From positions 105,551 to 160,114 of the forward strand of contig JAVCCE010000074.1 in the NCBI GenBank assembly GCA_030765645.1: DNA of 54,564 bases, written 5' to 3'. This DNA is from Candidatus Hinthialibacter antarcticus. Lineage in GTDB: Bacteria > Hinthialibacterota > Hinthialibacteria > Hinthialibacterales > Hinthialibacteraceae. Position numbers and translations under genes: made by a program. Numbering within the stretch: the stretch's first letter is position 1; each line of letters begins with the position of its first letter. Below, in pieces: positions 6,231 through 32,596 of the stretch. The notes beneath the pieces are model-generated. The model had not been told where the DNA came from and did no database searches. It saw only the letters and a program-made list of their open reading frames with translations.

Positions 6231-6860
6231 AATTCATCTCTTGTGACATCTGCATGACAAAAGAAAACTCGCAGGGAATTGGGTGAAGCGGCTTTCGTAG
6301 TCAGCGGCAATAAGCCGCGACGGAGACAAGCGCAACCCAACCCCGAGGGTTTTCGATAACCATAAAGCATCGCGTGACGCGAATCTCTCCAGCGTCACGC
6401 GATTTTCGCTCACTTAATTGTCTGATTCAATGACCGCATAAATTCATCTCTTGTGACATCTGCATGATGAAAGAAAACTCGCAGGGGATTGGGTGAAGCG
6501 GCTTTCGTAGTCAGCGGCAATAAGCCGCGACGGAGACAAGCGCAACCCAACCCCGAGGGTTTTCGATAACCATAAAGCATCGCGTGACGCGAATCTCTTC
6601 AACGTCACGCGATTTTCGCTCACTTAATTGTCTGGTTCAATGACAACACAAATTCATCTCTTGTGACATCTGCATGACGAAAGAAAACTCGCAGGGGATT
6701 GGGTGAAGCGGCTTTCGTAGTCAGCGGCAATAAGCCGCGACGGAGACAAGCGCAACCCAACCCCGAGGGTTTTCGATAACCATAAGGCATCGCGTGACGC
6801 GAATCTCTCCAGCGTCACGCGATTTTCGCTCACTTAATTGTCTGGTTCAATGACCGCAAC
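6231..6860. repeat. Tandem array: three 210-bp units, each with one family-A element and a copy of the hflC 3' end
   Basis: Units start at 6231, 6441 and 6651 with AATTCATCTC, an exact period of 210 bp. Each unit has, in order, a family-A structured element (6263-6354, 6473-6564, 6683-6774), a hairpin with arms CGCGTGACGC and GCGTCACGCG, and a segment matching the last codons of hflC (reading LNQTIK-stop on the minus strand). The third unit runs directly into the real hflC gene, where AATTCAT occurs again at 6861. The array looks like unequal amplification between two AATTCAT sites, one inside hflC. The units differ at only a few positions, which suggests recent amplification. Confidence 0.9.
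6369..6403. terminator. Hairpin of the hflC 3' region (first of three tandem copies)
   Basis: Arms ATCGCGTGACGC and GCGTCACGCGAT are perfectly complementary. Further copies lie at 6579-6613 (arms interrupted by one changed base) and 6789-6823. The copy at 6789-6823 immediately follows the hflC stop codon on the minus strand and probably ends or stabilises the hflKC mRNA. The T-tract is weak, so an mRNA-stabilising hairpin is as likely as an intrinsic terminator. Confidence 0.5.
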
Positions 6861-7894
6861 AATTCATTTTGCGTATCAAGAATCAGCGTCGTATTGCTGT
6901 CCAGGCTTTTCTCAAGCGCTTCGAGCGAACGCACAAAACGGAAAAACTCCGGATTGTCTTCAAAGCCCTGGATAGTTTGCGACGCCTGTCCTGAGACCTC
7001 TTTCACAAAGCCGTTCGCATAGATGCGGGCCGCTTCAGCGTCAGCCGTGCCCTGAATAACTTGAGCTTCGCGTTCCGCTTCCGCCAACATGTTGTTGACT
7101 GTGAGGTCGGTTTCGGCGCGGATAATAGCAGCGTCGCGCTTGCCTTCTTCTTCATATTTCATGCTGATGCGCGCGCGTTCGGCTTTCATGTTTTCATAAA
7201 TCGCACTCTGGTTTTCAGTAGGCACGTCGGCCCTCTTGATGCGCACGTCAATGATGTACACGCCCAGCGACAACGCTTCGCGGCGGCTGATCTCGGTCAC
7301 TTCTTTCATAATTTGGTCGCGACCGGTTGTGATTTGAATGCGCTTTTGCGCGGGAATGTCGAGATCAAGATCGTTCACCATATCGTTGTTCGAGCGGATA
7401 ATTTCGATGAAGTCATTTTTGCCCAACACATCACGCAGCGCCGAGTAGATGATATCGTCCAAACGGGTGCGAGCATTGGCGATGCTAATAATGCTCTGGC
7501 GAAACAACAACGGATCATAGATATACCAGCGCGCAAAATTATCGACCACTAAGTTCTTTTTATCTTTCGTGACGATCGCTTCCGGCTGGGCGTCGTATTC
7601 GAGTGCGCGGTCGTCAAAATATTCGACCTTTTGAAAATAGGGCAGTTTGAAATACAGCCCTGCGCCTTGGACAACGCGCACGTTCCAGTCATTTTCACCG
7701 TTCAGTTTAACAATATTTTCCTGCAAGAGATCAATTTGGTTAAATGGCGAATCGCCCACAATGACGCGCACCGGGCGCCCCCATTGGGTGATGACCGCCT
7801 GGTCGATTTCGGTAACGATAAACGCTGCCGATAAAACCAGACCCGCCAGCAAGAAGAAAACAATCACGCCAATAACGTAGAGATACTTTTTCAT
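6830..7894 (-). CDS. hflC: HflC, SPFH/prohibitin-family membrane protein
   Basis: 354 residues from the ATG at 7894, chosen because AAGGAGGG lies just before it and the next upstream methionine has no such site. Residues 1-22 are one transmembrane helix ('YVIGVIVFFLLAGLVL'). A band-7/SPFH domain follows ('VTEIDQAVITQWGRPVRV', 'GLYFKLPYFQKVEYFDDRAL', 'ARWYIYDPLLF', 'LGVYIIDVRIKRADVP'). The C-terminal helical part is rich in E/A ('AEREAQVIQGTADAEAARIYA'). With HflK it forms a periplasmic-facing membrane complex that in E. coli modulates FtsH proteolysis. It starts one base after the hflK stop. Its 3' end is included in the tandem 210-bp repeat array. Confidence 0.95.
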   Translation of the reverse strand: MKKYLYVIGVIVFFLLAGLVLSAAFIVTEIDQAVITQWGRPVRVIVGDSPFNQIDLLQENIVKLNGENDWNVRVVQGAGLYFKLPYFQKVEYFDDRALEYDAQPEAIVTKDKKNLVVDNFARWYIYDPLLFRQSIISIANARTRLDDIIYSALRDVLGKNDFIEIIRSNNDMVNDLDLDIPAQKRIQITTGRDQIMKEVTEISRREALSLGVYIIDVRIKRADVPTENQSAIYENMKAERARISMKYEEEGKRDAAIIRAETDLTVNNMLAEAEREAQVIQGTADAEAARIYANGFVKEVSGQASQTIQGFEDNPEFFRFVRSLEALEKSLDSNTTLILDTQNELLRSLNQTIK

Positions 7895-7895
7895 A

Positions 7896-8954
7896 TTATC
7901 GCCCTCCTTGTGGGTCTGGCGCAATCGGCAGCGTAGGCGTAAGTCCCGACGGGGTTACATTCAAAAACTTGAGTACGTCGTTTTGGCTTTGAGTCCCAAT
8001 AATCACTTTCGTTTTGCCTTCGAGGACCTTTTCCATGGTTTCGAGATAGAGACGCGTTTTTGTGACTTCGGGCGCGGCCTCATATTCGCGCAGCACAGCG
8101 GCGAAACGCTCCACCACACCTTGAGATTCCGCGATGCGCTTGACGCGATAGGCTTGCGCTTCCTGCAGCAGTTCCTGCACCTTGCCTTCCGCCTTGGGCA
8201 CTTCGCTGTTGCGGTAGCCTTCGGCTTCATTAACGAACCGCACCTGGTTTTCGCGAGCGCTCACCACTTGGCGAAATGCGGGCTGCACCTCCGGCGGCAC
8301 ATCGACGCCTTGCAGTTGCACCTGTTTGATCGAAACGCCCAGGTTGTAATTCTCACAGAGCGCTTGAATCTCCAATTTGATTTCAGCGGCGATGTCTTCC
8401 CGGCGATCAGTCAATACTGCGTCGATGGGATAATCGCCAACGACTTTACGCATGGCTGATTCAGCGATGTCTTTCACGGTCTCTTCAACATCATCAGCAT
8501 TGAAGAGATATTTGACCGGATCATTGATGAGAAACTGTACCGCAATCTTAACCTCGGCAATGTTTTCGTCGCCAGTCAACATGTAACTCTCGCCCGACAC
8601 TTGCTGCGCAGGCGTGGTTCCAGGCCGGGAGCGAAAGCCGATTTCGATGCGTTTGACCTGCGTAACCTGGGGGGTATAAATCAATTCAACCGGAGGCGGC
8701 AAACGAAAGTGGATGCCCGGCCCCAAGGTGCGGCTGAATTCCCCCAACCGCAACACCACGCCGATCTCGTCGGTGTCAATCGTGACCCACGGACGAAACA
8801 CTAACAAACCAAAAAATACGATCGAGAGAATGATAACGGTGGGAACCCATTTCTTTATCCATGCTGGTGGTTGCATATTCGCCATTTGCTCCTTGCGCCG
8901 CTTTTGTTCTTCGAGCGGCAGCTCTTCAAACCAGTCTTGAAAATTCTTGTCCAT
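7896..8954 (-). CDS. hflK: HflK, SPFH/prohibitin-family membrane protein
   Basis: 352 residues from the ATG at 8954, preceded by AGGAG; an open extension upstream to 9140 has no family similarity and is discarded. A charged N-terminal segment (residues ~1-30) is followed by one transmembrane helix ('VPTVIILSIVFFGLLVF'). The SPFH domain includes 'TIDTDEIGVVLRLGEFSRTLGPGIHFRLPPPVE', 'RSRPGTTPAQQ', 'YMLTGDENIAEVKIAVQF' and 'GVSIKQVQLQGVDVPPEV'. It partners HflC in a large membrane assembly controlling FtsH. The HflC ribosome binding site lies inside the last codons of this gene, which indicates translational coupling. Confidence 0.95.
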   Translation of the reverse strand: MDKNFQDWFEELPLEEQKRRKEQMANMQPPAWIKKWVPTVIILSIVFFGLLVFRPWVTIDTDEIGVVLRLGEFSRTLGPGIHFRLPPPVELIYTPQVTQVKRIEIGFRSRPGTTPAQQVSGESYMLTGDENIAEVKIAVQFLINDPVKYLFNADDVEETVKDIAESAMRKVVGDYPIDAVLTDRREDIAAEIKLEIQALCENYNLGVSIKQVQLQGVDVPPEVQPAFRQVVSARENQVRFVNEAEGYRNSEVPKAEGKVQELLQEAQAYRVKRIAESQGVVERFAAVLREYEAAPEVTKTRLYLETMEKVLEGKTKVIIGTQSQNDVLKFLNVTPSGLTPTLPIAPDPQGGR

Positions 8955-9073
8955 TGAATTTGACTCCTGAGTATACGCCTTGGTGTAGACGCCTATTGTA
9001 GCATTAGCGTATGCTTTCAACATGGAATACGACAAAAACGTCGAAAACTCTACAAAATAAGGAGGCGATTCGC

Positions 9074-10294
9074 ATGAAACTCGACCCAATAGGCAGAACA
9101 TTTCTCTTTTTGGCGGCATTCGCGCTTTTTGTTTTAACAACCTTCGCGATGCCGACGCAAGGCGACGATATAATCCAAACGCCCGAACAAGCGATGGAGT
9201 GGCTCAAACAGAAATCCACCCAAATGGTGCATGAATGCCGCCGCGAAATGGACGACGGGACCGCCGCGTTTCCACCGCAGGTTGGACTTGGATACGAAGC
9301 GTTTTGGCTGCGCGATTACGCCTACATGCTGGAAGGCAACCCCGGCGCATTCACGGCGAAAGAAATGACCGACGCCTGCCGCTTGTTTGCGGGCAAGCTA
9401 AACCCAGACGGCGCGGGCGTTGATTGCATCAAATTTGACGGGACCCCCATCTACAAGCCCGGCTTCGGTAGTTTGGGCGAAAACCCGGTCGCTGACGGCT
9501 CTCAATTCACGGTCGATGTGGCGTGGCATACCTACCAGCAGACAAAAGATCGCGCCCTGATACGCGAAATCATCGACGCGCTGCTCAAAACCATGCGCGC
9601 CTGCCCGCGCCAAGCCAACGGGCTGGTGTATATCGACCCCAACCGCGACTACGACCGCTGCCCTTATGGGTTTACTGACACCGTGCGAAAACAGGGCGCG
9701 GTATTATTCAGCAGCCTATTATATGTGCAAGCAAGTCGGCAATTGTCTGACCTCTTAGGCGCTATTGAACGGGGCGACGAAGCGCAGCAATGGTTGAATC
9801 AAGCCAAATCGCTTACCGACGCAATCCACGAGACGTTTTGGGACGATGAAGTCGGCTTATACCGGGCTGCGACGGTGCGTTGTCGGGAACATGATATCTG
9901 GGGATCGGCTTTCGCCGTCTATCTGGGCGTCGCCGCGAACGATCAAGCGCAGCGAATCTCACAATACTTTGCCGACCACTACCATGAATTGGTCCAAGAC
10001 GGTCAGGTGCGCCACACGCGGGGCGGCGTCTATTGGCAAGATGCGCGCGAGCAGGACGCCTACCAAAACGGCGCTTTCTGGGCGACGCCGTCGGGTTGGT
10101 TCGCCTATGCGCTTAATATCAGCAACCCTGCGATGGCGGACCAGATGATTGTTGACCTGGCCAACGATCTAAAAAAAAGAAACGCGCCGGAATGGATATT
10201 CAAAGAGACTGCGCGATTGCCGGGCTATAACGCCAGCGCGGCCCTGCCCATTGCGGGCATCCAAAAACTCTTGCATCAACGCAAAACCCGTTGA
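9074..10294 (+). CDS. Secreted six-hairpin (alpha/alpha) glycosidase-like protein
   Basis: 406 residues from the ATG at 9074, chosen for the strong AAGGAGG nine bases upstream. A signal peptide covers residues ~1-33 ('FLFLAAFALFVLTTFAMP'). The mature protein has features of (alpha/alpha)6 toroid glycosidases such as the glucoamylase-like or GH63-like group: 'GYEAFWLRDYAYMLEG', 'VADGSQFTVDVAWHTY', 'YGFTDTVRKQGAVLFSSLLY', 'FWDDEVGLYRA', 'DIWGSAFAVYLGVA' and 'YQNGAFWATPSGWFAYAL'. Acidic residues in 'WLRD' and 'YQNGAFW' are candidates for the active site. The exact family and substrate are not determined. It is divergent from hflK. Downstream lies the family-B repeat array. Confidence 0.7.
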   Translation: MKLDPIGRTFLFLAAFALFVLTTFAMPTQGDDIIQTPEQAMEWLKQKSTQMVHECRREMDDGTAAFPPQVGLGYEAFWLRDYAYMLEGNPGAFTAKEMTDACRLFAGKLNPDGAGVDCIKFDGTPIYKPGFGSLGENPVADGSQFTVDVAWHTYQQTKDRALIREIIDALLKTMRACPRQANGLVYIDPNRDYDRCPYGFTDTVRKQGAVLFSSLLYVQASRQLSDLLGAIERGDEAQQWLNQAKSLTDAIHETFWDDEVGLYRAATVRCREHDIWGSAFAVYLGVAANDQAQRISQYFADHYHELVQDGQVRHTRGGVYWQDAREQDAYQNGAFWATPSGWFAYALNISNPAMADQMIVDLANDLKKRNAPEWIFKETARLPGYNASAALPIAGIQKLLHQRKTR

Positions 10295-10394
10295 GGTAAC
10301 TGATTGCCTTGATGGAGGTTTGTTTTCGCACAATTGACAACGGACGCCGCAAGCAGCGGGGTATTATATTGAGTATTTATAGTGGTTGCCAGAT

Positions 10395-10915
10395 CAGGCA
10401 TGGGTGCAACTCTGGGAGCGCCTGTGCATAAGGGCCTGAAAGCCCGCACCAAAGCAAGCAGAGCTGTGCCCATGCCTTTCGCAACGAAAGTGCAAATAAC
10501 TTTGAGGTTCATCCGGTAATTAATTACTTACATTGATGGATGGCCATGATTTTGAGTAAGAAAACATATTCCGGCATATCAAAAATTAGCTGGTCAATTC
10601 AGGCATGGGTGCAACTCTGGGAGCGCCTGTGCATAAGGGCCTGAAAGCCCGCACCGAAGCGAGCAGAGTTGTACCCATACCTTTCGCAACGAAAGTGCAA
10701 ATTTTTTTGAGGTTCATCCGGTAATTGATTACTTACATTGATGGATGGCCATGATTTTGAGTAAGAAAACATATTCCGGAATATCAAAAATTGGACGGCC
10801 AATTCAGGCATGGGTGCAACTCTGGGAGCGCCTGTGCATAAGGGCCTGAAAGCCCGCACCGAAGCAAGCAGAGATGTACCCATGCCTTCCGCAACGAAAG
10901 TAAAAATTATTTTGA
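10395..10915. repeat. Tandem array of a 205-bp unit (about 2.5 copies) carrying family-B hairpins
   Basis: Units start at 10395, 10600 and 10805 (period 205 bp); the third stops near 10915. Each has a hairpin core of about 80 bp (10397-10475, 10602-10680, 10807-10885) with arms like GGCATGGGTGCAACTCTG and CAGAGTTGTACCCATGCC. An AT-rich arm of about 110 bp follows, containing 'TAATTGATTACTTACATTG' and 'ATATTCCGGCATATC'. Inside the hairpin are nested stems GTGC/GCAC and GGGC/GCCC. Just before the first unit, TAGTGGTTGCCAGA (10380-10393) matches the end of family C. A further full copy lies at 53255-53450. Short open frames here are repeat shadows. Confidence 0.9.
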
Positions 10916-10982
10916 GATGGCTTCAAGTATTTCTTGCGCTCCAAGGGGCGGGGAATGAAACCCGAATGAGAATTAAAGCCGC

Positions 10983-11702
10983 TTATTCGGTTTCTTTAAG
11001 GCGCTGCTCTGCCAGCGGGGCTTCAGCGGAACCGGGGTAGGTTTCAATCAATATCCGCAAGGTTGCGCGTCCGCTGACCGTCTGCCCGTCTTGCAATAGC
11101 GAAAAGCCTTTCTTCAACTGCGCGGCGGACGCCAATTTATGTTGCGAGAATTCCGTTTCGAATTTGTTGAAGCATGAAATCGCGCGTTCCCAATCACGCA
11201 GCCGGTAATAACTCTCGCCCAGCCAATAGAGCGAACGCGCCTGCATGTTTTCTTCGCCCGCATAACGATAGGCCAAGACAAATTCTTCGGCGGCGTCTTT
11301 ATAGTCGCCGCGATTGTAAAACGCCTGCGCACGGCGAAAGGCCGTGCCTGCTTGGGTATCGGTTAGAATCGAGGGGGCGTCAATACTTGTCGACAAAACC
11401 GACCCACCGGGCGCCGTGGGCTGCAACGCTGGCGCCGGTTCATACTGTTCGGCTTCTTCGCGCAATTTTGCGTTCATTTCTTCGATCACGCGGCGGCGCT
11501 CTTCGGTCATTTGTTGGCGCTGGGTTTGTTTGCTATTCAGTTCTTGTTGAATGCGGCCCATGTCGGCGTTGATTTCACGCAGCATGTCCGAACGCGTGGT
11601 GATGCACCCGCTCTGAAACGCGGTCAGCATCAAAGCCGCACAACACCCAAACGCGATACGAAAAGAACAGCTCACCAGTTCAACTTTCAGACGCAAAATC
11701 AC
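10983..11702 (-). CDS. TPR lipoprotein resembling YbgF/CpoB
   Basis: 239 residues. The N-terminal 'CCAALMLTAFQSGC' looks like a lipoprotein signal with the lipid-modified Cys at ~33. Residues ~40-85 are a charged helix likely to form a coiled coil ('MGRIQQELNSKQTQRQQMTEERRRVIEEM'). Residues ~118-235 hold three TPR units of the YbgF type ('AFRRAQAFYNRGDYKDAAEEFVLAY', 'ARSLYWLGESYYRLRDWERAISCFNKF', 'ASAAQLKKGFSLLQDGQTV'). YbgF/CpoB coordinates the Tol-Pal system with peptidoglycan synthesis at division, but no tol genes are adjacent, so this is by architecture only. The start is GTG at 11702; an in-frame GTG at 11675 would give a more compact signal peptide. Confidence 0.75.
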   Translation of the reverse strand: MILRLKVELVSCSFRIAFGCCAALMLTAFQSGCITTRSDMLREINADMGRIQQELNSKQTQRQQMTEERRRVIEEMNAKLREEAEQYEPAPALQPTAPGGSVLSTSIDAPSILTDTQAGTAFRRAQAFYNRGDYKDAAEEFVLAYRYAGEENMQARSLYWLGESYYRLRDWERAISCFNKFETEFSQHKLASAAQLKKGFSLLQDGQTVSGRATLRILIETYPGSAEAPLAEQRLKETE

Positions 11703-11761
11703 TTGGAATGGATATCATACGCCGCTTCCGGCGCGGGATCAAAGATTGCGGCGCGTAAGGC

Positions 11762-11789
11762 TTGTGAATTTTAGGGGTTCGGCTATATT
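11762..11789 (+). promoter_or_regulatory. Sigma-70-type promoter for the 29-residue basic protein gene
   Basis: TTGTGA (11762-11767), a 16-bp spacer and TATATT (11784-11789), about 38 bp upstream of the start codon at 11827. With the terminator at 11949 it brackets the small gene as a single-gene transcription unit. Confidence 0.55.
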
Positions 11790-11826
11790 TATTGTCCCTA
11801 AACGAGCAGATTTGGAGGACGGACTG

Positions 11827-11916
11827 ATGGCAAAAGGTAAAAACAAAAAAGCGCATAAACTTCGTTGGCGCAAAAAGAAAGCCAACCATCGCAGCATCCC
11901 CTGCAAAGGTCGCTGA
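11827..11916 (+). CDS. 29-residue highly basic protein
   Basis: Sequence begins MAKGKNKKAHKLRWRKKKAN and ends HRSIPCKGR. About half the residues are Lys, Arg or His; there is one Cys and no acidic residue. It is too short for most gene finders but well supported: GGAGGA before the ATG, a good promoter at 11762 and an intrinsic terminator at 11949. The composition fits an RNA-binding or ribosome-associated peptide like the smallest ribosomal proteins. I do not recognise it as a named ribosomal protein, so a role at the ribosome is inference. Confidence 0.7.
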   Translation: MAKGKNKKAHKLRWRKKKANHRSIPCKGR

Positions 11917-11948
11917 GCCGTATCTTAAGCGAATTCAATCAAATACAC

Positions 11949-11984
11949 ACCCGCTAGCGACTTCAATCCGTCAGCGGGTTTTGT
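11949..11984 (+). terminator. Intrinsic terminator after the 29-residue protein gene
   Basis: Arms ACCCGCT (11949-11955) and AGCGGGT (11973-11979), then TTTTGTATTGT. It ends about 70 bases after the TGA of the small gene, as expected for a monocistronic unit. Confidence 0.8.
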
Positions 11985-12050
11985 ATTGTCTATTTTAATT
12001 ACCCGCCCGAACTTGCGTGTCCGCGTCTATCCATAGACCTCTAGGAATGG

Positions 12051-13163: not shown

Positions 13164-13243
13164 TCGTTGGGCGCGGCGCAGGCTGGAGTATAATGCGCGA
13201 AGCGCCAATTTGATTTGGCCGACTCTAGCGTGAATCCGGTTTG

Positions 13244-15840: not shown

Positions 15841-15865
15841 ACTGCTGTTTTTACAGCGAGCGGTA

Positions 15866-15912
15866 TGGGCACAACTCTGCTCGCTTCAGTGCGGGCTTTC
15901 AGGCCCTTATAA
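15866..15912 (-). repeat. Half copy of family B, joined to a family-C element
   Basis: On the minus strand this reads AAGGGCCTGAAAGCCCGCAC, then the descending arm CAGAGTTGTGCCCATACC. The ascending half of the hairpin is missing and family C starts at 15913 instead. Either C inserted next to B, or the two recombined. Confidence 0.75.
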
Positions 15913-16989: not shown

Positions 16990-17112
16990 ACTATTTTCCC
17001 TGACCTCGCATGTTGTATTGTGAGTTACTATTATCAATTATCCTTATACTGAAGCAAGGCCTATTTAGACCCTACGGCTTATCCCACCAACAGCAGTTTG
17101 CATCACCCAAGA

Positions 17113-17315: not shown

Positions 17316-17365
17316 GGCGGCGAGGCCGCCCCCTCACCCCAGCCCTCTCCCAGTGGGAGAGGGAG
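17316..17365. repeat. Palindromic interspersed repeat (CCCTCACCCC / GGGAGAGGG type), copy 1
   Basis: GGCGGC-GAG-GCCGCC followed by CCCTCACCCCAGCCCTCTCC and GGGAGAGGG. A related copy lies at 22263-22296 in inverted orientation. Repeats of this composition are widespread in bacterial genomes. Confidence 0.7.
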
Positions 17366-17501
17366 TAACGCTTGCGATAGATGCCGAATTCGCACAACCT
17401 AAATATTTTTGATTCGCAAAGTGCCAGCGCGCCGGAACGGCTCAGCGATAGGTACAGAAGTGGAGTGATTTAGATTCACTAATCTTAATACCACACGAAA
17501 T

Positions 17502-22248: not shown

Positions 22249-22262
22249 AAACCAGTGTTTAC

Positions 22263-22296
22263 TCCCTCTCCCGCCGGGAGAGGGTTGGGGTGAGGG
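22263..22296. repeat. Palindromic interspersed repeat, copy 2
   Basis: CCCTCTCCCGCCGGGAGAGGG followed by TTGGGGTGAGGG (all within 22263-22296); related in inverted form to 17316-17365. Located just after the DUF6807 stop. Confidence 0.65.
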
Positions 22297-22318
22297 CTTG
22301 AATTTGATAATCTAGGTT

Positions 22319-22402: not shown

Positions 22403-22460
22403 GATTTCAGGAAAAAGCAGACGATGTTCGAATGAGCGAGTCTTAAGGCGGGACGGCTCC

Positions 22461-23219: not shown

Positions 23220-23257
23220 CAGCACGATGCGCTTTCATTTGAAGTTGTTTCTACGTA

Positions 23258-23351
23258 TGAAAAGTCGCAGGGGATTGGGTGAAGCGGCTTTCGTAGTCAG
23301 CAGCAATAAGCCGCGACGGAGACAAGCGTAACCCAACCCCGAGGCTTTTCA
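23258..23351. repeat. Family-A structured element (locus 2)
   Basis: About 94 bp. Basal arms TGAAAAG (23258-23264) and CTTTTCA (23345-23351) are complementary. Then TCGCAGGGGATTGGGT pairs with ACCCAACCCCGAGG, and inner GCGGCTT with AAGCCGC. The core is almost identical to the copies at 6263 and 32507 (inverted), but the basal stem differs in a compensating way. It lies between two divergent genes. Confidence 0.85.
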
Positions 23352-23407
23352 ACGACCTGTATAGTCAGTATACCGGACGATATGTGATATGCCGACATCT
23401 GACGCAT

Positions 23408-23446
23408 CCCCCAAGGTTTCCTTGAAGAATGGGGCGGTTTCTTTTA
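23408..23446 (+). terminator. Hairpin with T-rich tail between divergent genes
   Basis: CCCC-CAAGG-TTT-CCTTG-GAAT-GGGG pattern, then GGTTTCTTTTATT. It lies 47 bases before the Gfo/Idh start at 23493, so it may be a relic of an older gene order or a leader attenuator. Confidence 0.35.
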
Positions 23447-23492
23447 TTGTTAGCATTCATTAGAAAACGTGATCCCGATCAAGTGAGGCGAA

Positions 23493-24746: not shown

Positions 24747-24774
24747 TTCTGCAGCAATCAGTCGTGAGACAAAC

Positions 24775-24804
24775 AAGAGGGGCGCGTATTGCGCCCCTCT
24801 TTTC
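24775..24804. terminator. Strong intrinsic terminator (bidirectional)
   Basis: AAGAGGGGCGC (24775-24785), loop GTATT, GCGCCCCTCTT (24791-24801), then TTCATT. It ends the Gfo/Idh gene on the plus strand. The minus-strand acyltransferase gene ends ~125 bases away and could also use it. Confidence 0.9.
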
Positions 24805-24848
24805 ATTGTGTGACGAGTAACAACGAAACATCATACTAAAACATAAGT

Positions 24849-24924
24849 CTTGGGCGGGTCTCTGTGAGCGCTTGTGCAAAAAGGGCATTAAGCCCGCACC
24901 GAAGCGAAGAGAGACCCACCCCAG
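24849..24924. repeat. Diverged family-B element with a different basal stem
   Basis: The core (GAGCGCTTGTGCA, AAGGGCATTAAGCCCGCACC, GAAGCGA) matches the other family-B copies. The arms are GGGCGGGTCTCT and AGAGACCCACCCC instead of GGGTGCAACTCTG and CAGAGTTGTACCC. Both arms changed together and still pair. The element ends two bases before the acyltransferase stop codon. Confidence 0.8.
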
Positions 24925-24926
24925 CC

Positions 24927-26591
24927 TTATTCAGCGGGTTGCGCGATTGCTGCGCCGCCGCGTTTTTTGCGTCCATTCAACAACGCGCCCACCCAGGTGT
25001 AGCGCACCATCGTCTCATAAATGACCAACAAAAATCCCGTCACCAATACCGTAACCAAAACAAACTTGGCCAGCGCAGGCATTTGCCAGTCGCGAATATA
25101 TGCCTGCACAAAAAAGATCAACGGCAGGTGGGCGATGTAGAGCCAATAGGATGAATCCGAAATATAACGCATCCACTTGCTTTCGCGGCTGAGCAGTCGG
25201 CGAAACAGCCCCATGCAGCCGAAGGTCATCAGCCAGACGTAAGCGACTTGCAAAAGATTATTGATGAATTGTCTCGCGCTTGGAATCAGCGGAATCGCCT
25301 CATTGGGGGCGTGAGTGAATATCATACCAATGGGGAAAATCACCAATATCGCAACCGGCAGCGTCAGCCAGTAGCGCTTGCCTAAGGCGCCTGCCTCGTC
25401 TTTGGCGTCAAAATATAAGGCGCCGAATCCAAAGAAAACCGCGTAATACAACAACACATGCGGCATGGGCAGCAACCCCGCCGAGGTGTCAGAGCCAAAA
25501 GTCGGTTCAATCATAAACAACTGCGGAACCATCGTGAGCGGGACCAGCCACATATACCGTAGCGGCGATAAAATCAGTTTGCTGGATTGGACGTTCCAAT
25601 TCAGCGCGTCTGCGATGAGCGCATAAACCGCGAAGCCAACCACCAGCCAAATGAGAAACCACAAAAACCAGAGGTGTTGAAGCACAGGCGTTGAAAACAG
25701 CAGTCCATACAGGATGCTGAGCACAGGATTTGAGCGTTCTTGTCCGGTGGAGACGCCCAATATTTCGGAAATCTGGCTGCGGCCTTCGTTGATTTTTTGG
25801 GGATCAAATTTTACGTTGACCAGTCCAGCGATGAATTGGGTTGTCCCCATGTCGGCGGTTAACGACTGATGAGACGTTTGTCCATAACTGTTTTTGATGT
25901 CCGCGTCTGCGCCATTTTGCAACAAGACTTTTGCGACTTCGGCCTCGCCGAAAAAAGCGGCGGTGTGCAGCGGGGTTGAACCGTCGCGCACGGGCATGTT
26001 CACGTCTGCGCCCAGTTCAAGTAACAGTTCAACCGCTTCGAGTTGGCCGGTCATCGTCGCCGTCGATAGCGGCGTGATTCCATAAATTTGATCTTGTTGG
26101 TTGATCCCGGCGCCGTCTTCGACAAATGCTCGAATTTTTTCTAAATCGCCGACTCTCGCCGCCGACCAGAGATCAGCGCTTGCTTGCGTAGATACGGCGG
26201 CCTCTTCATCAACGCTCTGGGCGGTCCCCGTTGTCATGGCCCAGCCAATAATCAAATATGACGCGGGAATGATGGTGATAAGACACAACGCGAACGGGAT
26301 AAAAATCCGCCGGAAGCGGTGCCGCAGTAGCGACTTCAGCCCGCGCTTGCGCCATAACATTGCAGTAAAAAATCCGCTGATGAGAAAAAACAGCGGCATG
26401 CGAAAACCATGCAAAAACGCGGGGATCAATCCCAATATATGCGCTTGCTGATTGTCTTGCACCGGCCAAAGCCCCGGGATAAACGATAGCGACGCATGAA
26501 GCGCGATGCCCGACAGCATGGCGATGGCGCGTAGCGCGTCGAGGTCGTGGCGGCGGTCGATGGCGGTAGTTTGCGTGGTCGCGTTATTCAT
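24927..26591 (-). CDS. Acyltransferase-3 (OpgC/MdoC-like) membrane protein with an inserted ankyrin domain
   Basis: 554 residues. The N-terminus is a classic acyltransferase-3 start: 'RRHDLDALRAIAMLSGIALHASLSF' with the active-site-type His32, then 'FRMPLFFLISGFFTAML' and 'RRIFIPFALC'. Between membrane helix 3 (~98-117) and the next helix (~300) lies a soluble insert (~138-285) with three to four ankyrin repeats ('GITPLSTATMTGQLEAVELLLELGADVN', 'DGSTPLHTAAFFGEAEVAKVLLQNGADADIKN'). The remaining ~8 membrane helices follow and end in 'YWLYIAHLPLIFF'. The enzyme should O-acylate a periplasmic or surface glycan; the ankyrin part may bind a protein or glycan partner. It overlaps the ankyrin lipoprotein gene by 8 bp. 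Confidence 0.88.
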   Translation of the reverse strand: MNNATTQTTAIDRRHDLDALRAIAMLSGIALHASLSFIPGLWPVQDNQQAHILGLIPAFLHGFRMPLFFLISGFFTAMLWRKRGLKSLLRHRFRRIFIPFALCLITIIPASYLIIGWAMTTGTAQSVDEEAAVSTQASADLWSAARVGDLEKIRAFVEDGAGINQQDQIYGITPLSTATMTGQLEAVELLLELGADVNMPVRDGSTPLHTAAFFGEAEVAKVLLQNGADADIKNSYGQTSHQSLTADMGTTQFIAGLVNVKFDPQKINEGRSQISEILGVSTGQERSNPVLSILYGLLFSTPVLQHLWFLWFLIWLVVGFAVYALIADALNWNVQSSKLILSPLRYMWLVPLTMVPQLFMIEPTFGSDTSAGLLPMPHVLLYYAVFFGFGALYFDAKDEAGALGKRYWLTLPVAILVIFPIGMIFTHAPNEAIPLIPSARQFINNLLQVAYVWLMTFGCMGLFRRLLSRESKWMRYISDSSYWLYIAHLPLIFFVQAYIRDWQMPALAKFVLVTVLVTGFLLVIYETMVRYTWVGALLNGRKKRGGAAIAQPAE

Positions 26592-27120
26592 TGCCGAACT
26601 TCGCGCCGTGTTCCTTCAAAATATCGGCGACAGACCCCCGGGTGCGTTTGATGCGATCTAGGTCAATCTCCATTTGCAATATGCCGCCGACCATGGCGTA
26701 AACATCTTCTAATTCCTGGCTCCATTCGGCGCCGACCGCATCAAGCGGGGTCGTGCCGATGTTGTCTTTCGGGTTCGGTTCGGCGCCGTTTTCTAACAGC
26801 AACTTCACGATATTCGGATGGCAAAACAGCGCGGCGAGGTGTAAAGCGGTTGAACCATTATTGTTCTTTTGGTCTAACGCTGCGCCCTTTAAAATTAACA
26901 CTTCGGCTGCATCGGGCTGACCAAACAAGGCTGCCACAATCAAAGGCGTCGAGCCGCCGGTTGGCTCGAGGGCGTTGATGTCTGTTCCCGCTTTGACGTG
27001 TTGTTGAATGGCGGCGATGTTTCCTTCTCCCGCCGCTTGCCAGATGTCGATTTCCGGCGGTTGTTCGGCGCATCCAACGGCAAAAATCATTACGGTGAGA
27101 TATAGCAATGCCTTTTTCAT
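26584..27120 (-). CDS. Ankyrin-repeat lipoprotein
   Basis: 178 residues. 'MKKALLYLTVMIFAVGC' is a lipoprotein signal with the modified Cys at 17. Three ankyrin repeats follow: 'DIWQAAGEGNIAAIQQHVKAGTDIN', 'GSTPLIVAALFGQPDAAEVLILKGAALDQKN', 'GSTALHLAALFCHPNIVKLLLENGAEPNPKD'. The tail 'MEIDLDRIKRTRGSVADILKEHG' is also found, diverged, at the end of the ankyrin insert in the next gene. The two proteins align along this whole module. Translation is probably coupled (8-bp overlap), so the lipoprotein and the acyltransferase insert may work together in the periplasm. Confidence 0.85.
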   Translation of the reverse strand: MKKALLYLTVMIFAVGCAEQPPEIDIWQAAGEGNIAAIQQHVKAGTDINALEPTGGSTPLIVAALFGQPDAAEVLILKGAALDQKNNNGSTALHLAALFCHPNIVKLLLENGAEPNPKDNIGTTPLDAVGAEWSQELEDVYAMVGGILQMEIDLDRIKRTRGSVADILKEHGAKFGNE

Positions 27121-27240
27121 CTTTTCTCCAATTATAAACTATATTTTATGATGAGTTTTACTAGAGCAATCCAAAGCGTCTCATATACTATACGTTGAGG
27201 ATGTAGTGATCTTTCATTTATTTATTTTTTACACCCTACC

Positions 27241-28086
27241 ATGAATACGATTGGATTGGAAATGCAAAGAATATTCATACTTTTCACATTACTTACCGTT
27301 GCATTGGCGCCATGCGGCTTTGCCGTAGACGCGCCGCGCGCGGCGCGGTCGGTGCATCTGTGGTATCCGGCGCCGGAAAGCGAATGGTTCTATAACGAGA
27401 TGATCGTCGATGAGTCGCACCCCGGCAGCTACTTCATGGCGTGCGGCTTCAGCCACGGTTATTTTGGCATTCAAGAAATACGCGGACCTGAAGACAAGGT
27501 CGCGATTTTCTCAGTCTGGGAGCCCGGCGAACAAGACGACCCCAACATTGTCAAAGACGACCTGCGCGTCAAGCCATTGTTTGAAGGCGAGGGCGTCAAC
27601 GTCAGCCGCTTTGGAAACGAAGGCACCGGCGGCAAGAGCATGTTCCCCTATCAATGGAACATCGGCGAGACCTATAAGTTTTTGCTGAACGCGAAACTCG
27701 AGGGCAAGCGCAGCGTCTATACCGCGTATTTTTATCTCAATGAAGAATCGCGATGGAAGAAGCTGGCGACCTTCTCAACCCTCGCCAAAGGCGACCGCCT
27801 CAAGGGCTACTACTCATTCGTTGAAGATTTCTGGCGCAACGGCGAAAGCGCACAACAGGTGCGCCGCGCCCGCTACGGCAACGGCTGGGTCAAGACGCTC
27901 GACGGCGATTGGGTCGATCTCACCCGCGCGCGTTTCACCGCCGACCGCACACCGACGATGAACATCAACGCGGGCTTGCTTGATGGATTGTTCTTCTTAC
28001 AGACGGGCGGCGAAACCGTCAACGAGTTGCCGCTGCGCGACGAGATGTCGCGGCCTCCACGCGGGTTGGAGTTACCAAAGGAATAA
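27241..28086 (+). CDS. DUF3472 secreted protein
   Basis: 281 residues with a signal peptide ('FILFTLLTVALAPCGFAVDA'). An alternative ATG at 27262 would give a shorter signal. The DUF3472 pattern is clear: 'SVHLWYPAPESEWFYNEMIVDESHPGSYFMACGFSHGYFGIQEI', 'IFSVWEPG', 'FPYQWNIGETYKFLLNA' and 'GYYSFVEDFWRNGES'. The family is found in secreted proteins of carbohydrate-using bacteria and is thought to be beta-sandwich; its function is unknown. It is divergent from the ankyrin lipoprotein gene and followed by a repeat. Confidence 0.85.
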   Translation: MNTIGLEMQRIFILFTLLTVALAPCGFAVDAPRAARSVHLWYPAPESEWFYNEMIVDESHPGSYFMACGFSHGYFGIQEIRGPEDKVAIFSVWEPGEQDDPNIVKDDLRVKPLFEGEGVNVSRFGNEGTGGKSMFPYQWNIGETYKFLLNAKLEGKRSVYTAYFYLNEESRWKKLATFSTLAKGDRLKGYYSFVEDFWRNGESAQQVRRARYGNGWVKTLDGDWVDLTRARFTADRTPTMNINAGLLDGLFFLQTGGETVNELPLRDEMSRPPRGLELPKE

Positions 28087-28143
28087 AAGTTGAACTTTTA
28101 TTGATAGAATTTCGTATTCTTTTTGAGGCCTGTTTTTAATGCA

Positions 28144-28198
28144 GATCCCCCCTGCCCCCCTTACAAAAGGGGGGTGGCGTCGAAGACGACGGGGGGAT
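28144..28198. repeat. Palindromic repeat rich in C6/G6 tracts, copy 1
   Basis: ATCCCCCCTGCCCCCCTTAC, AAAGGGGGG, then GGCGTCGAAGACGAC and GGGGGGAT. A second copy is at 53593-53640. This is a widespread dispersed-repeat type in bacteria. It lies between the DUF3472 and hydrolase genes. Confidence 0.75.
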
Positions 28199-28307
28199 TT
28201 CGGTATAATGAATTTTCCCATCAAGATTTCACACATTGAATAGAAACCCTCCCCCAATCTGGGGAGAAGATTTCCTACTAAAGATTATGATTTTCTTGGA
28301 GAACTGT

Positions 28308-29873
28308 ATGTTTCAGCCGTATAGATTTATATTCACGCTTCTCTTATTTGCCGTCACAGCGAGCGGGGTTTCTGCCTTAACCTGGCAGGAGAAAACCGAC
28401 CGCCAGTTTCGTAAATGGGACCGCACCGACTCGCCCGGCTGCGCCATCATCGTCGTCAAAGACGGAGAGGTCATCCATCAAAACGGCTATGGCATGGCCA
28501 ACTTGCGCTACGATATCCCGATTGACCCTGAGACGACCATCTTTCGCACCGCGTCTAATTCAAAGCAATATGTCGCGTTCGCAATTTTGCTGCTGCATGA
28601 CGAAGGGCTGCTTACGCTGGATGACGATATTCGCGACTACATTCCAGAATCGCCTGACTTTGGCGAAACCATCACCATCCGCCATTTGCTTCACCACGTC
28701 AGTGGGATACGCGACTATTTGAGTTTGGCTTCAATGTCAGGCTTGGTTTTGATGAATGATTATATTGATAAGACGTATGCGCTTGAAATGTTTGAAAACC
28801 AACAACGCCTCAATTTCGCGCCCGGCGACCAAACCATGTACTCAAACACCGGCTTTACTCTGCTGGGCGAAATTGTGGCGCGGGTGAGTGGACAGTCGCT
28901 ATCAGAATTTTGCCGCGAACGCATCTTTGAACCGCTGGGCATGACCAATACGTTTTTTATTGACAACTTTCAGACGGTTTATGACAATTTCGCTGATGCG
29001 TATATTCCCGATCCAGAGGGTAACACCTGGCATTCAACCATCGGCTTCTCAAGCGTGGGCGCGGCGGGCATGGCCAGCACGGTGGTCGATCTCGCCAAGT
29101 GGGATGAAAACTTCTACAACCCCGTTGTCGGCAATTCAACGATCATAAAAATGATGGAGCAAAAATTCAGGCTCAATGACCGAACCCTTGGAACGATGTC
29201 GATGGGGCTGATTGTCGAAGAAGCGCTCGGCATCAAAGTGGTTTATCACGGCGGCGATTTAAACGGCTTTCATTGCCAGACCATGCGGTTTCCGAATGAA
29301 CATTTTTCGATGATTTTTTTGTCGAACACCGCTGAACTCAATTCCGGTGAATTGGCAACCATGTCGATACAGATTCGCAGTTTCTATTTGCAGGAACCGG
29401 ATACGTCAGTGACAGACTTTCAGTTGCACGAACCCACGCCGCCGATGCCCGCGTTTCTCTCGGGTTTTATTCACCCTGATTTAGATATGATGCCTTATTT
29501 GAATCCGCCTGCGTATGCGCCGAAGGCTCGCGCGGCAAGGCCCAGCCAAGCCAAACCTCAACTCACCGAGCCGCAGGTTCGGCGTTATGTGGGGCGTTAT
29601 TACAGCGAAGAGTTAGACGTGTTTTATGAACTCGCGCTCGAAGACGGCTATCTGATGTTCAAGACGCCGCGCATTCGCCCTGGAATCTTTGGCGTCGACC
29701 AGGTTGACTCAGACGGCTCGTTCGTGACTGAAGTGATTCCATTCATTGGCCTGCCTGCGTTTTGGGGAACATTCACCGAAGACGGCTCTGGCAACATAGA
29801 CGGATTTCTGCTCAGCAACTTCCGAGTCATTGACCTCAAATTCATCAAAGTCACCACGGCTCCGTTTGACTGA
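28308..29873 (+). CDS. Secreted serine hydrolase of the beta-lactamase / PBP fold (class C-like)
   Basis: 521 residues from the ATG at 28308, chosen for TTGGAG eight bases upstream and because the signal peptide (~1-25, 'FIFTLLLFAVTASGVSA') then starts properly. The active-site motifs are present: S-x-x-K in 'TASNSKQY', Y-x-N in 'MYSNTGF', and 'YHGGDLNGF' as the KTG equivalent. 'GLLTLDDDIRDYIPE', 'TIRHLLHHVSGIRDY' and 'RIFEPLGMTNTFF' are family hallmarks. The C-terminal ~130 residues are a lipocalin-like extension ('YVGRYYSEELDVFYELALEDGYLMFKTPR'). It probably acts as an esterase or D-aminopeptidase, and not necessarily on beta-lactams. Confidence 0.92.
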   Translation: MFQPYRFIFTLLLFAVTASGVSALTWQEKTDRQFRKWDRTDSPGCAIIVVKDGEVIHQNGYGMANLRYDIPIDPETTIFRTASNSKQYVAFAILLLHDEGLLTLDDDIRDYIPESPDFGETITIRHLLHHVSGIRDYLSLASMSGLVLMNDYIDKTYALEMFENQQRLNFAPGDQTMYSNTGFTLLGEIVARVSGQSLSEFCRERIFEPLGMTNTFFIDNFQTVYDNFADAYIPDPEGNTWHSTIGFSSVGAAGMASTVVDLAKWDENFYNPVVGNSTIIKMMEQKFRLNDRTLGTMSMGLIVEEALGIKVVYHGGDLNGFHCQTMRFPNEHFSMIFLSNTAELNSGELATMSIQIRSFYLQEPDTSVTDFQLHEPTPPMPAFLSGFIHPDLDMMPYLNPPAYAPKARAARPSQAKPQLTEPQVRRYVGRYYSEELDVFYELALEDGYLMFKTPRIRPGIFGVDQVDSDGSFVTEVIPFIGLPAFWGTFTEDGSGNIDGFLLSNFRVIDLKFIKVTTAPFD

Positions 29874-29908
29874 GCCGACAATAAATTAATACGCGAATAG
29901 AAACGTAA

Positions 29909-29936
29909 GAGGGGCTTCGTTTTCACGAAACCCCTC
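29909..29936 (+). terminator. Terminator-like hairpin after the serine hydrolase
   Basis: GAGGGG-CTTCGT-TTTC-ACGAA-A-CCCCTC followed by GCTGTTTAT. Starts 36 bases after the stop codon at 29873. On the minus strand it would also follow the truncated gene ending at 29958. Confidence 0.7.
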
Positions 29937-29957
29937 GCTGTTTATACAAGAACGAAA

Positions 29958-30143
29958 CTACAGGTCTTCTAAACGGAGCGCGTTGAAGCCCGCCACGTTG
30001 ACGCTGCTGCTGCTGGGTTCAAACGACCCCTGGAAGGCCGAGAAGCCTTCGGCGCGTCCAGTCAAAATCAGGTTGGATGCGCCATTGATACTCGAGGCGT
30101 CATCCGAATTGGTAAAATCTGTTAAGAAAAGTTCTAAAGAACC
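29958..30143 (-). pseudogene. C-terminal remnant (~61 codons) of an unknown protein, no start codon
   Basis: On the minus strand an open stretch reads '...LELFLTDFTNSDDASSING', 'ASNLILTGRAEGFSAFQGSF' and 'EPSSSSVNVAGFNALRLEDL' then stop. Base and codon use are like the neighbouring genes, while the DNA just upstream is AT-rich and has two in-frame stops (TGA, TAG at 30144-30149). There is no ATG, GTG or TTG in a position to start it. The rest of the gene seems to have been lost or replaced. The family is not recognised; the composition suggests a secreted beta-rich protein. Confidence 0.5.
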
Positions 30144-30328
30144 CTATCAAATGCGTTTGCGCTTAATGAATTTCGTTATCCCCTTGTTAATGACAGGCCA
30201 AGGATCGAGTGAACAATGTGAAGAAAAAGTAATTTTTTATGTGTAATTTATAGCCATATAAAACCTTAATATACAGATAGTTAAACAAAGAATAACATAA
30301 TTTTAGATTCATTTTATGAATTTTCCTG

Positions 30329-30357
30329 TTGACAAGTTCCTGAAGATTGGATATTCT
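30329..30357 (+). promoter_or_regulatory. Near-consensus sigma-70 promoter for the NusG paralogue
   Basis: TTGACA (30329-30334), exactly 17 bp, TATTCT (30352-30357). It is the best-looking promoter in the window together with that of nrdJ. The start codon is ~40 bases downstream, so the leader is short and continuous with the GAAAGGAA ribosome binding site. Confidence 0.8.
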
Positions 30358-30397
30358 TTATTCATAATTTGAATTTAAAAGAAAGGAACCCCCTCCT

Positions 30398-30955
30398 ATG
30401 TTGTCTGGCCGCCTCGAAGATTACGCAGACCGTTGGCCTCACGACCGCCCCATCGAAGATGACCGGGGCAAGTGGCGAGTCGCTTACGTCAAGCCGCGCA
30501 ACGAAAAAGCGCTGGCGATTGATTGCCAACAAGCGGGCGTTCCTTACTATTTACCGTTATACGTCAAACGCAAACGCCGCAATGACAACAATAAGTATCG
30601 CAAAAGCGTGATGCCGTTGTTTCCGGGGTATTTTCCGTTCGTTGACACAGAAGACGGCAAAAGCAAATTACAACAAACCAACCGCGTCGTTCACATTCTT
30701 GATATTAACGATCAGGAAGCGTTTGTACGCGATCTCGAGCAAATTCGCCACGCGGTGAACTCCGGCATGGCGGTCGACGCCGTCCCGTATATGGAAGAAG
30801 GCCAAAAGGTCCGCGTAAAAGAAGGCCCGTTACAGGGACTTTGCGGAATCGTTAATCGGGTGGACGCGAACCACGCCCGGTTGGTCATCACGGTTGACGC
30901 GTTAAAAATGGCGGTTGAAGTTGAACTCGAAAGCGAGTCAGTCGAAGCACTTTAG
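30398..30955 (+). CDS. NusG-family transcription factor paralogue (RfaH/UpxY/LoaP-like)
   Basis: 185 residues. Residues ~25-115 are a NusG N-terminal domain ('GKWRVAYVKPRNEKALAIDCQQAGVPYYLPLY', 'KSVMPLFPGYFPFV', 'VHILDI'). Residues ~130-180 are a KOW domain ('YMEEGQKVRVKEGPLQGLCGIV'). Housekeeping NusG sits next to secE and rplK; this one does not, and the loop 'KRKRRNDNNKYRKS' is typical of specialised paralogues that act as antiterminators on one or a few long operons, often polysaccharide ones. The gene is alone between a promoter and a terminator, so its target is elsewhere or one of the envelope clusters nearby. Its TAG stop coincides with the end of a family-C element. Confidence 0.85.
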   Translation: MLSGRLEDYADRWPHDRPIEDDRGKWRVAYVKPRNEKALAIDCQQAGVPYYLPLYVKRKRRNDNNKYRKSVMPLFPGYFPFVDTEDGKSKLQQTNRVVHILDINDQEAFVRDLEQIRHAVNSGMAVDAVPYMEEGQKVRVKEGPLQGLCGIVNRVDANHARLVITVDALKMAVEVELESESVEAL

Positions 30956-31051
30956 CGTTGGTTAAATACTGTGCGTTAAGCGCGCCCGTAGGGCTCAGCG
31001 ATAGATGCCGATTAAGAAACCTTAATCTGCACGGTTTTCTAGCAAACACTA
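30953..31051. repeat. Family-C element (copy 2)
   Basis: Starts TAGCGTTGGTTAAATACTGTG at the NusG-paralogue stop codon and ends AGCAAACACTA. Read on the minus strand it aligns with copy 1: TAGTGTTTGCTAGAAAACCG, ATCTATCGCTGAGCCC, GCGCGCTTAACGCACAGTA. The first three bases are the TAG stop of the gene at 30398. Confidence 0.7.
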
Positions 31052-31135
31052 TAAAAAGGAAGTTCAAGGTTTATTCGTCCAAGATAAACCCTTTACCTGA
31101 TACAAAAACTGTCTAATCCCTCGTCCAAGGGAACC

Positions 31136-31167
31136 CGGTGGAAGCGAACCTTCCACCGTTTTTTTTG
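31136..31167 (+). terminator. Strong intrinsic terminator
   Basis: CGGTGGAAG (31136-31144), loop CGAAC, CTTCCACCG (31150-31158), then eight T. It is ~180 bases after the NusG-paralogue stop, with the family-C element in between. It probably ends that transcript and insulates the minus-strand gene ending at 31186. Confidence 0.92.
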
Positions 31168-31185
31168 TCTGGGCATGGAGAAAAT

Positions 31186-31545
31186 CTACACGGAGGGCTT
31201 TGCGCTTTCCATCTTCTTGCGTTCGACATAGGCGTCGTAGATCGAGTAAACATAGAGCACGACGCTGGCGACCGCTAATACGCAGAAGGTATAAAACTCA
31301 TCGCTGAGAAATTGCAGCGAATCGGCGGCTTGCTCTACATTGCCCTGGCCAATCTCCAAAAAATACATCGCGAGAAAATACCCGATCGGAATCAACAACG
31401 CCAACGAAGCAATCAAAAACACGATGCCGACAAACACCGCTTTGGCCCACTGGCGGTTATACAACTGGCCCGCGCCGGGAACCACCAGGGCGGACAACAA
31501 GGCGGCTTTCATGGCTTCGCTGCGGGCGGTCGCGGCGTTGTTCAT
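31186..31545 (-). CDS. Small membrane protein of the TM2 / 'PGAGQLYN' type
   Basis: 119 residues from the ATG at 31545 (AGGAG upstream). It overlaps the kdsB stop in ATGA, so it is coupled to kdsB. 'LLSALVVPGAGQLYNRQWAKAVF' is the TM2-like motif, followed by hydrophobic segments 'GIVFLIASLALLIPIGYFLAMYF' and 'FCVLAVASVVLYVYSIYDAYVER'. Such proteins are small integral membrane proteins of unknown role. The operon link suggests a connection with envelope synthesis, but this is inference. Confidence 0.75.
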   Translation of the reverse strand: MNNAATARSEAMKAALLSALVVPGAGQLYNRQWAKAVFVGIVFLIASLALLIPIGYFLAMYFLEIGQGNVEQAADSLQFLSDEFYTFCVLAVASVVLYVYSIYDAYVERKKMESAKPSV

Positions 31546-32306
31546 TCGGGGTTCTCCTGTAGTTTGTACGCATTGCGTACGCGCTCCACGTCTTCGGGCG
31601 TGTTGACGCCCGGCCACGGGTGGCTGGTGGAGATCATTTTAATGCGTACGCCGTGTTCGATGGCGCGCAGTTGTTCGAGGCTTTCTGACTTTTCCAACAT
31701 GCTGCGCGGCCAACAGGCGTAGCGCTGCAGGGTGGGGCGGCTGAATGCGTAGGCGCCCAGATGCAGCCAATAGTTGGCGGGGCGCTGCGCCCATTCGATG
31801 TCTTCTTTGCGGCGCCAAAATGGAATCGGGGCGCGCGAAAAATACAGCGCAAAATCTTCGTGGTCGATGACGACTTTCACCTGGTTGATGTCTTCCACAT
31901 CGGCGCGTTCGTGCAGCGGCGCCATCAGCGAGGCCATCTGTACGCCGGGCGCCTCTTCAAAACACTCGACCAGCCGGTCGAGGTCGGTGGGGTCGATCAA
32001 CGGCTCGTCGCCTTGCAGGTTCATAATGACGTCGTGGTCGAGATTGAGGTCTTCAAGCACCCGCGCCACCCGGTCGGAACCGGTGGGCAACGAGGGCGGC
32101 GACATCACCGCTTCACCGCCGAAACTGTCGACCGCTTGTTTGATGCGCTCGTCATCGGTGGCGACGATCACCCGATCGAGGCGCCGGGCGCGCGCGGCTT
32201 TTTCGTAGACGCGCTGAATCAGCGGGCGTCCGCAAATGTCGATCAACGGCTTGCCGGGCAGGCGCACCGACGCATAACGGGCGGGAATCACGCAGACAGT
32301 CTTCAG
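31542..32306 (-). CDS. kdsB: 3-deoxy-manno-octulosonate cytidylyltransferase (CMP-Kdo synthetase)
   Basis: 254 residues if begun at the CTG at 32306, which gives 'KTVCVIPARYASVRLPGKPL', the standard family N-terminus. GGAGGA lies five bases before the CTG, whereas the first canonical start (GTG at 32291) is 20 bases from it and would remove the first beta strand. Family motifs: 'RVIVATDD', 'LPTGSDRVARVL', 'VIMNLQGDEPLIDP', 'YFSRAPIPFWR' and 'HLGAYAFSRPTLQRY'. It activates Kdo with CTP for the inner core of LPS, which indicates a Gram-negative outer membrane. The stop overlaps the next start in ATGA. Confidence 0.93.
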   Translation of the reverse strand: MKTVCVIPARYASVRLPGKPLIDICGRPLIQRVYEKAARARRLDRVIVATDDERIKQAVDSFGGEAVMSPPSLPTGSDRVARVLEDLNLDHDVIMNLQGDEPLIDPTDLDRLVECFEEAPGVQMASLMAPLHERADVEDINQVKVVIDHEDFALYFSRAPIPFWRRKEDIEWAQRPANYWLHLGAYAFSRPTLQRYACWPRSMLEKSESLEQLRAIEHGVRIKMISTSHPWPGVNTPEDVERVRNAYKLQENPE

Positions 32307-32506
32307 GATGCTCCTCCAAAACGGCGAATCAATTCCACTACAGCATAATATATAGTAATCAAATCGCCCGCCATTGAAAGGCGAAGCGCCCTCTGATTCT
32401 GTGCAGGCTGCTCCAATTGTGATATTGTTTCGCTTCAGAATAACAACGATACATAAGCAGTGCAGTAATCGTAATAAAAATGACGCAATTCTATTTACGC
32501 GTTAAC

Positions 32507-32596
32507 GAACGCCTCGGGGTTGGGTTCTGCTTGTCTCCGTCGCGGCTTATTGCCGCTGACTACGAAAGCCGCTCCACCCAATCCCCTGCGACGTTC
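32507..32596. repeat. Family-A structured element (locus 3, inverted)
   Basis: Basal arms GAACG (32507-32511) and CGTTC (32592-32596) pair. The rest is the reverse complement of the family-A core (ACCCAATCCCC pairs with GGGGTTGGGT; GCGGCTT with AAGCCGC). It ends nine bases before the AAGGAT ribosome binding site of the next gene, so it would lie in that gene's leader. Confidence 0.85.

Follow-up and report, generated by a model that had tools for sequence, protein, structure and literature searches.

Dispersed hairpin elements with locus-specific paired flanks in Candidatus Hinthialibacter antarcticus

Hairpin families in the window and in the genome

The window, a stretch of 54,564 nucleotides of Candidatus Hinthialibacter antarcticus DNA, carries copies of three families of hairpin elements, A, B and C, which follow the same hairpin plan. 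The initial annotation had described five family-A copies with the outer pairs GAAAAC/GTTTTC, TGAAAAG/CTTTTCA and GAACG/CGTTC, and we verified all of their coordinates and pairs. The features of the window are as follows.

6225..6867: tandem array of three units with a 210-bp period; each unit is one A element plus ~120 bp of common flank
6263..6354, + strand: family-A hairpin element, tandem copy 1, with locus-specific paired ends GAAAAC/GTTTTC
6473..6564, + strand: family-A hairpin element, tandem copy 2
6683..6774, + strand: family-A hairpin element, tandem copy 3
10396..10478, + strand: family-B hairpin (related plan), tandem copy 1, 205-bp period
10601..10683, + strand: family-B hairpin, tandem copy 2
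10806..10888, + strand: family-B hairpin, tandem copy 3
15856..15910, - strand: family-B hairpin, partial
23258..23351, + strand: family-A hairpin element, paired ends TGAAAAG/CTTTTCA
24846..24928, + strand: family-C hairpin, with a core in common with B and a variable basal stem
32507..32596, - strand: family-A hairpin element, paired ends GAACG/CGTTC
53352..53434, + strand: family-B hairpin
53746..53788, + strand: family-B fragment

The array at 6225..6867 is an ordinary tandem duplication of the element together with its flank, and its three A copies (6263-6774) were counted as one locus. Each 210-bp unit also contains a second hairpin with T residues after it (GCGTGACGC...GCGTCACGCGATTTT; window 6390-6420, 6600-6630 and 6810-6840), which resembles a terminator on the + strand. 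A 33-nt A core, searched with up to three mismatches, matched exactly five sites in the window (chance expectation: 0). Genome-wide (5.15 Mb in 78 contigs), family A amounts to about 26 full-length copies and, in addition, a few fragments; some copies are fragmentary or decayed.

Families B and C have the core CTCTGTGAGCGCCTGTGCA...GCCCGCACYGAAGCGAAGAGAG in common, and a first look at the genome gave 372 candidates for B and 128 for C. A covariance model for B/C, built from 35 C copies, recovered 26 strong copies in 440 kb of sampled sequence and scored at least 150 copies in the whole genome; extrapolation from the density in the sample suggests ~300 B/C copies per genome. The same model gave no matches in 13 class relatives. 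Family B lies inside a dispersed repeat about 215 bp long (10300-11008, 53256-53451 and genome-wide; 63 copies aligned), in which GGTTCATCCGGTAAGTGAGTACCTACATTGATGGATGG... precedes the hairpin and CGCAGCGAAAGATCAAG... comes after it. The ends of several contigs fall in a copy of this long repeat, which therefore probably broke the assembly.

The elements appear to be restricted to this lineage. No convincing copy of family A was found among 60 related genomes, all from outside the genus, and exact core patterns matched neither any of 84,980 species genomes nor any viral contigs. DNA and covariance searches of class relatives yielded no matches for the elements, and neither did searches of plasmids and phages. 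Rfam returned no match at gathering cut-offs over the window and none up to E = 1 for A and C. In two family-level relatives (~390 kb each), a de novo repeat search detected no comparable dispersed hairpin family. The view that the sequence belongs to no named family was upheld by the pattern, Rfam, plasmid and phage searches; the kind of element, REP/REPIN-like, is already known.

Hairpin anatomy and pairing of the flanks

Every copy that we folded forms one long hairpin, with RNA-fold z-scores between -4.8 and -6.9 (five folded) and between -5.3 and -6.9 for the three family-A loci of the window. From the outside inwards, an A element consists of the locus-specific paired flank, a foot (GYCGCA/GAGGY), a stem [GGGG(A)TTGGGT/AACCCAACCCC], an internal loop, one side of which carries GTAG or GGAG, and an apical hairpin [GTC(A)GCGGC-AATAA-GCCGCGAC]. 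Purine-rich internal loops are conserved in the elements, and the element ends are the least conserved part. In four A copies (L012, L013, L018 and L020) the 3' foot is longer by one or two bases and pairs more fully. An inner stem GCGGCTT/AAGCCGC had been proposed earlier; it is possible as an alternative pairing, but the fold prefers the local apical hairpin. Five A copies lend the proposed stem no support: they retain GCGGCTT but carry another hairpin, also largely self-paired, at the apex. The substitute reads ACGGCC...GGCCGT or close to it in L021, L022 and L025, and GCGGCC or GCGACC...GGCCGC in L024 and L026.

Pairing of the flanks was scored at 23 independent A loci over the ten positions outside the foot, and 126 of 230 positions were paired. 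Permutation of flanks between loci gave a mean of 85.8 (sd 6.5), and the observed value was reached in 0 of 100,000 permutations; other registers gave background levels. In an alignment of 17 A copies, 72% of the cells of the flank helix were paired (shuffles: 54%), which fell to 39-45% when the partner was slid by one column, and the covariation score of the flank was 0.517 compared with 0.196±0.038 in shuffles. Perfect runs of at least 6 bp occurred at 30% of A loci but at 0.8% in mixed flanks. The earlier statement that the outermost bases always pair holds as a locus-specific, register-specific and highly significant effect throughout the genome, but not as a universal rule: a run of at least 4 bp was present at about 57% of the 23 loci, and L024, L025 and L026 had almost no flank pairing. 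Where present, the pairing is flush with the element edge, continues unbroken for up to 8 bp and then drops to background; with the first pair skipped, the four positions beyond the first mismatch paired at 0.39 (background: 0.375).

Family C is an independent replicate of this effect. We used 61 C copies chosen for different flanks, some of them B-like with part of the B flank in common, which diluted the effect. The paired fractions at the five positions outside the stem were 0.70, 0.69, 0.64, 0.46 and 0.36, against 0.42, 0.29, 0.34, 0.32 and 0.24, respectively, and a perfect run of at least 4 bp was found at 26% of the 61 loci as opposed to 2% after mixing.

In families B/C the inner stem of the element also covaries, strongly so in C, and the structural requirement in these families is therefore real. 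At the most variable C stem pair, 35 copies carried UA (19), GC (12), CG (2), AU (1) or UG (1), and none was broken. Over 23 stem and flank pairs of C, the covariation score was 0.337 (shuffles: 0.146±0.012). Tandem-duplicated copies (the pairs L077/L082 and L069/L085) carry single, uncorrected stem changes. The most economical view is that folding is needed for mobility, so that source lineages would stay paired while resident copies decay.

Origin of the flank pairing

Four A copies (L001, L004, L005 and L006) are very close to the consensus, with one or two changed bases among 72 core positions. Their paired flanks, GAAAAC/GTTTTC, GCAAAATG/CAATTTGC (with one mismatch), TTGAAATG/TATTTCAA and TGAAAAG/CTTTTCA, respectively, are mutually unrelated. 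Because near-identical cores carry four unrelated flank pairs, we infer that the flank pairing of A came with insertion and not through compensatory point mutation; successive mutation is rejected, because the cores would then have diverged far more. Flank pairing showed no clear decay with core divergence in A, with the four copies of longer 3' foot lying out of register, and this leaves some room for upkeep by selection. According to the initial annotation, either the hairpin is selected or the element inserts into dyads that were there before. Where the outermost bases of A are concerned, our results favour an origin at insertion, of which insertion into dyads is one fitting version and fold-back copying another, whereas selection of an RNA hairpin gains no support from the wobble statistics given below.

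On balance, we consider it probable that A, B and C are REP/REPIN-like hairpin elements that are mobile but non-autonomous and that acquire their flank pairing at insertion. The copies are dispersed, with unrelated flanks around near-identical cores. Each folds into a long, imperfect hairpin in which the apical part is conserved, and this apex, as folded single-stranded DNA, would probably be recognised by a strand-specific enzyme (HUH-type or similar). The elements would move through a single-stranded intermediate, be recognised by structure and have spread within this one lineage. The internal stem of C would stay paired across source lineages because movement needs folding. Flank pairing could be made at insertion in two ways. 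One is entry of the element into the middle of a short palindrome; the other is extension of the hairpin's 3' end by copying of the adjoining flank (fold-back synthesis). The inner mismatch of L004 leans slightly towards palindrome targeting, and the flush perfect runs lean towards fold-back extension. Joined flanks, searched as empty sites against the available sequence, returned only longer family-B homology and nothing usable.

We tentatively suggest, as something that may well turn out otherwise, that each insertion writes an inverted copy of a few target bases beside the element, or that the enzyme picks palindrome centres of any sequence. If true, integration would leave a signature that differs from the direct target duplications of ordinary transposition. 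For the question of how REP-like elements move and choose their targets, near-identical copies with locus-specific paired flanks provide a sharp, testable insertion footprint.

An alternative, which we regard as unlikely, is that the elements are structured 3'-UTR RNA elements or terminators, i.e. hairpins in the mRNA that serve termination or 3'-end protection and whose pairing is kept by compensatory evolution. The placement of C is consistent with this explanation. C copies follow closely on the 3' ends of genes and keep a fixed orientation. By simple ORF calling, in which individual assignments may be wrong, 41 of 48 copies have a right-hand gene that points at them (p = 6e-7), often with the stop codon of that gene 10-60 bp away. 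By the same gene calls, C lies between convergent pairs in 24 of 48 cases (background: 21%) and between divergent pairs in 3 of 48 (background: 33%), and its orientations between tandem gene pairs divide 17 to 4 (p = 0.007). The folds are very stable, and the A flanks, which over four to five bases are rich in A on the left side and in T on the right, resemble a bidirectional terminator. Short A/T tracts of this kind occur within the paired flanks of A copies, and there are none in C copies. The orientation bias of A, however, was not significant (p = 0.38), unrelated paired flanks are present already in young A copies, and no Rfam family was found even at E = 1.

Mismatches in the stem of C also bear on this alternative. 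Stem positions 6-13 contained G.T nine times and A.C nine times; the numbers are small. At one further position G.T is the consensus (45 of 61 copies), and it reads A.C on the strand transcribed from the adjacent gene. Wobble tolerance as expected of an RNA was thus not seen on either strand. Selection of an RNA hairpin is unsupported because one strand should then tolerate G.U, yet G.T and A.C were equally frequent. Apparent covariation in a dispersed hairpin can stem from insertion instead of RNA selection, and covariance-based RNA discovery could well call A and C structured RNAs.

It is also conceivable, though improbable in our judgement, that the pairing was produced after insertion by template-switch (quasi-palindrome) correction, in which replication errors copy one arm onto the other and create complementarity without selection. 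Equal numbers of G.T and A.C mismatches, flush perfect runs with abrupt ends and the transversion-type double changes at the variable C pair are all consistent with such a process, but the tandem duplicates retain their single stem changes uncorrected and the youngest A copies are flank-paired already. It is very improbable that the elements are kept by selection at the 3' ends of genes, as cruciforms or hairpins, because a nucleoid protein or a DNA-processing protein binds them: they are palindromic, intergenic and present in hundreds of copies with conserved purine-rich loops, but they are lineage-restricted, some are fragmentary or decayed, and a dispersed family with near-identical cores fits a mobile repeat better.

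Comparison with known mobile repeats

We compared A, B and C with several known systems. In REPIN hairpins compensatory changes are common (PMC3116915). Like REPINs, the REP doublets moved by RAYTs (Bertels and Rainey, PMC3116915), the elements are hairpins of about 100 nt with hundreds of intergenic copies, dispersed and long, whose paired arms show compensatory stem changes; REPINs are thought to travel as single-stranded hairpins. Unlike REPINs, whose ends are conserved and whose middle is variable, A, B and C are conserved at the apex and variable at the base of the stem. REPINs also adjoin their cognate RAYT, whereas here no RAYT is bordered by A or B.

REPs adjoin ORF 3' ends, form tandem arrays together with flanking DNA, include CGTC families without a transposase and in some cases sit inside palindromes that have a family consensus (PMC3733652). 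GTAG- and CGTC-tagged REPs (PMC3733652) thus share with our elements the location at ORF 3' ends, the tandem arrays with flank and, for some, the position inside palindromes; the host palindromes there follow a family consensus, whereas the dyads here differ at every locus. The CGTC families that lack a transposase are a further parallel. Folded single-stranded REPs are the substrate of the E. coli enzyme TnpA-REP, whose activity depends crucially on GTAG (PMC8266576). A GTAG/GGAG (or CGTC) tag is absent from the palindrome foot of our elements; A has GTAG/GGAG in the internal loop only, next to the apical hairpin.

The initial annotation had noted that no RAYT gene is in view. While this holds for the window, three RAYT (Y1_Tnp) genes exist elsewhere in the genome, of which one lies on the same contig, 45 kb upstream. 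Two are apparently intact (NCBIfam REP_Tyr_transpos: 189 and 110 bits), in keeping with the REP/REPIN reading, and one is broken. No A or B copies were found at the borders of the three RAYT neighbourhoods. The three genes (L124, L125 and L126) each have a different type of repeat at their borders; these types are GTAGGGTGGGTTCTTAACCCACC, a GGTGGCAAGGGC repeat and a GGGGAGGGCGAACC repeat. The broken gene, at C1:146816, has a frame that ends early and two C elements downstream, on one side only; a link between C and RAYT through this gene was dropped, its own repeat having been found on both sides. A RAYT as the obvious mobiliser was likewise set aside: the genes are present, but none is bordered by A or B. 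The mobiliser may act in trans. A, B and C work like REP/REPIN elements, but we do not class them with the REPs of any known REPtron, because neither the tag nor the RAYT association was found. The new aspect is the flush, locus-specific flank pairing in near-identical copies.

Tiny mobile hairpins of cyanobacteria, the small dispersed repeats SDR4-6, were reportedly described by Elhai et al. in 2008 as showing compensatory changes, with one family inserted in a palindromic octamer. They are said to measure 21-27 nt, in contrast to ~90 here, and to use a fixed target octamer where the palindromes here vary.

Integron attC sites are likewise structure-recognised hairpins of variable sequence that lie 3' of genes in fixed orientation. 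Here there are no cassette arrays, however, and A, B and C are conserved at the apex and not at the ends. We rejected attC as a candidate: instead of RYYYAAC ... GTTRRRY boxes at its outer ends, A reads ATTGGGT ... ACCCAAC, the reverse arrangement. Assignment to MITEs was also rejected, as the elements have neither conserved terminal inverted repeats nor a direct target-site duplication, and their flanks are inverted, not direct, repeats.

Other repeats were seen in the course of this work. A dispersed repeat unrelated to A, B and C, TTTATAGTG.TTGC.AGAAAAC..TGC.GATT.AG.TTTC...CATCTATCGCTGAG, occurs at window 30947-31040 and beside elements in L037, L040 and L231. Positions 17331-17368 and 22259-22296 form an inverted pair of CCCTCACCCCAGCCCTCTCCC...GGGAGAGGG repeats, and a similar sequence is present in the sample of a relative (L257-L276). 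This relative (G002) also carries a very large, CRISPR-like array of GCTTCAATGGGGCCACCGATTTACATCGGTGGAAAC repeats, with 166 copies in the sample.
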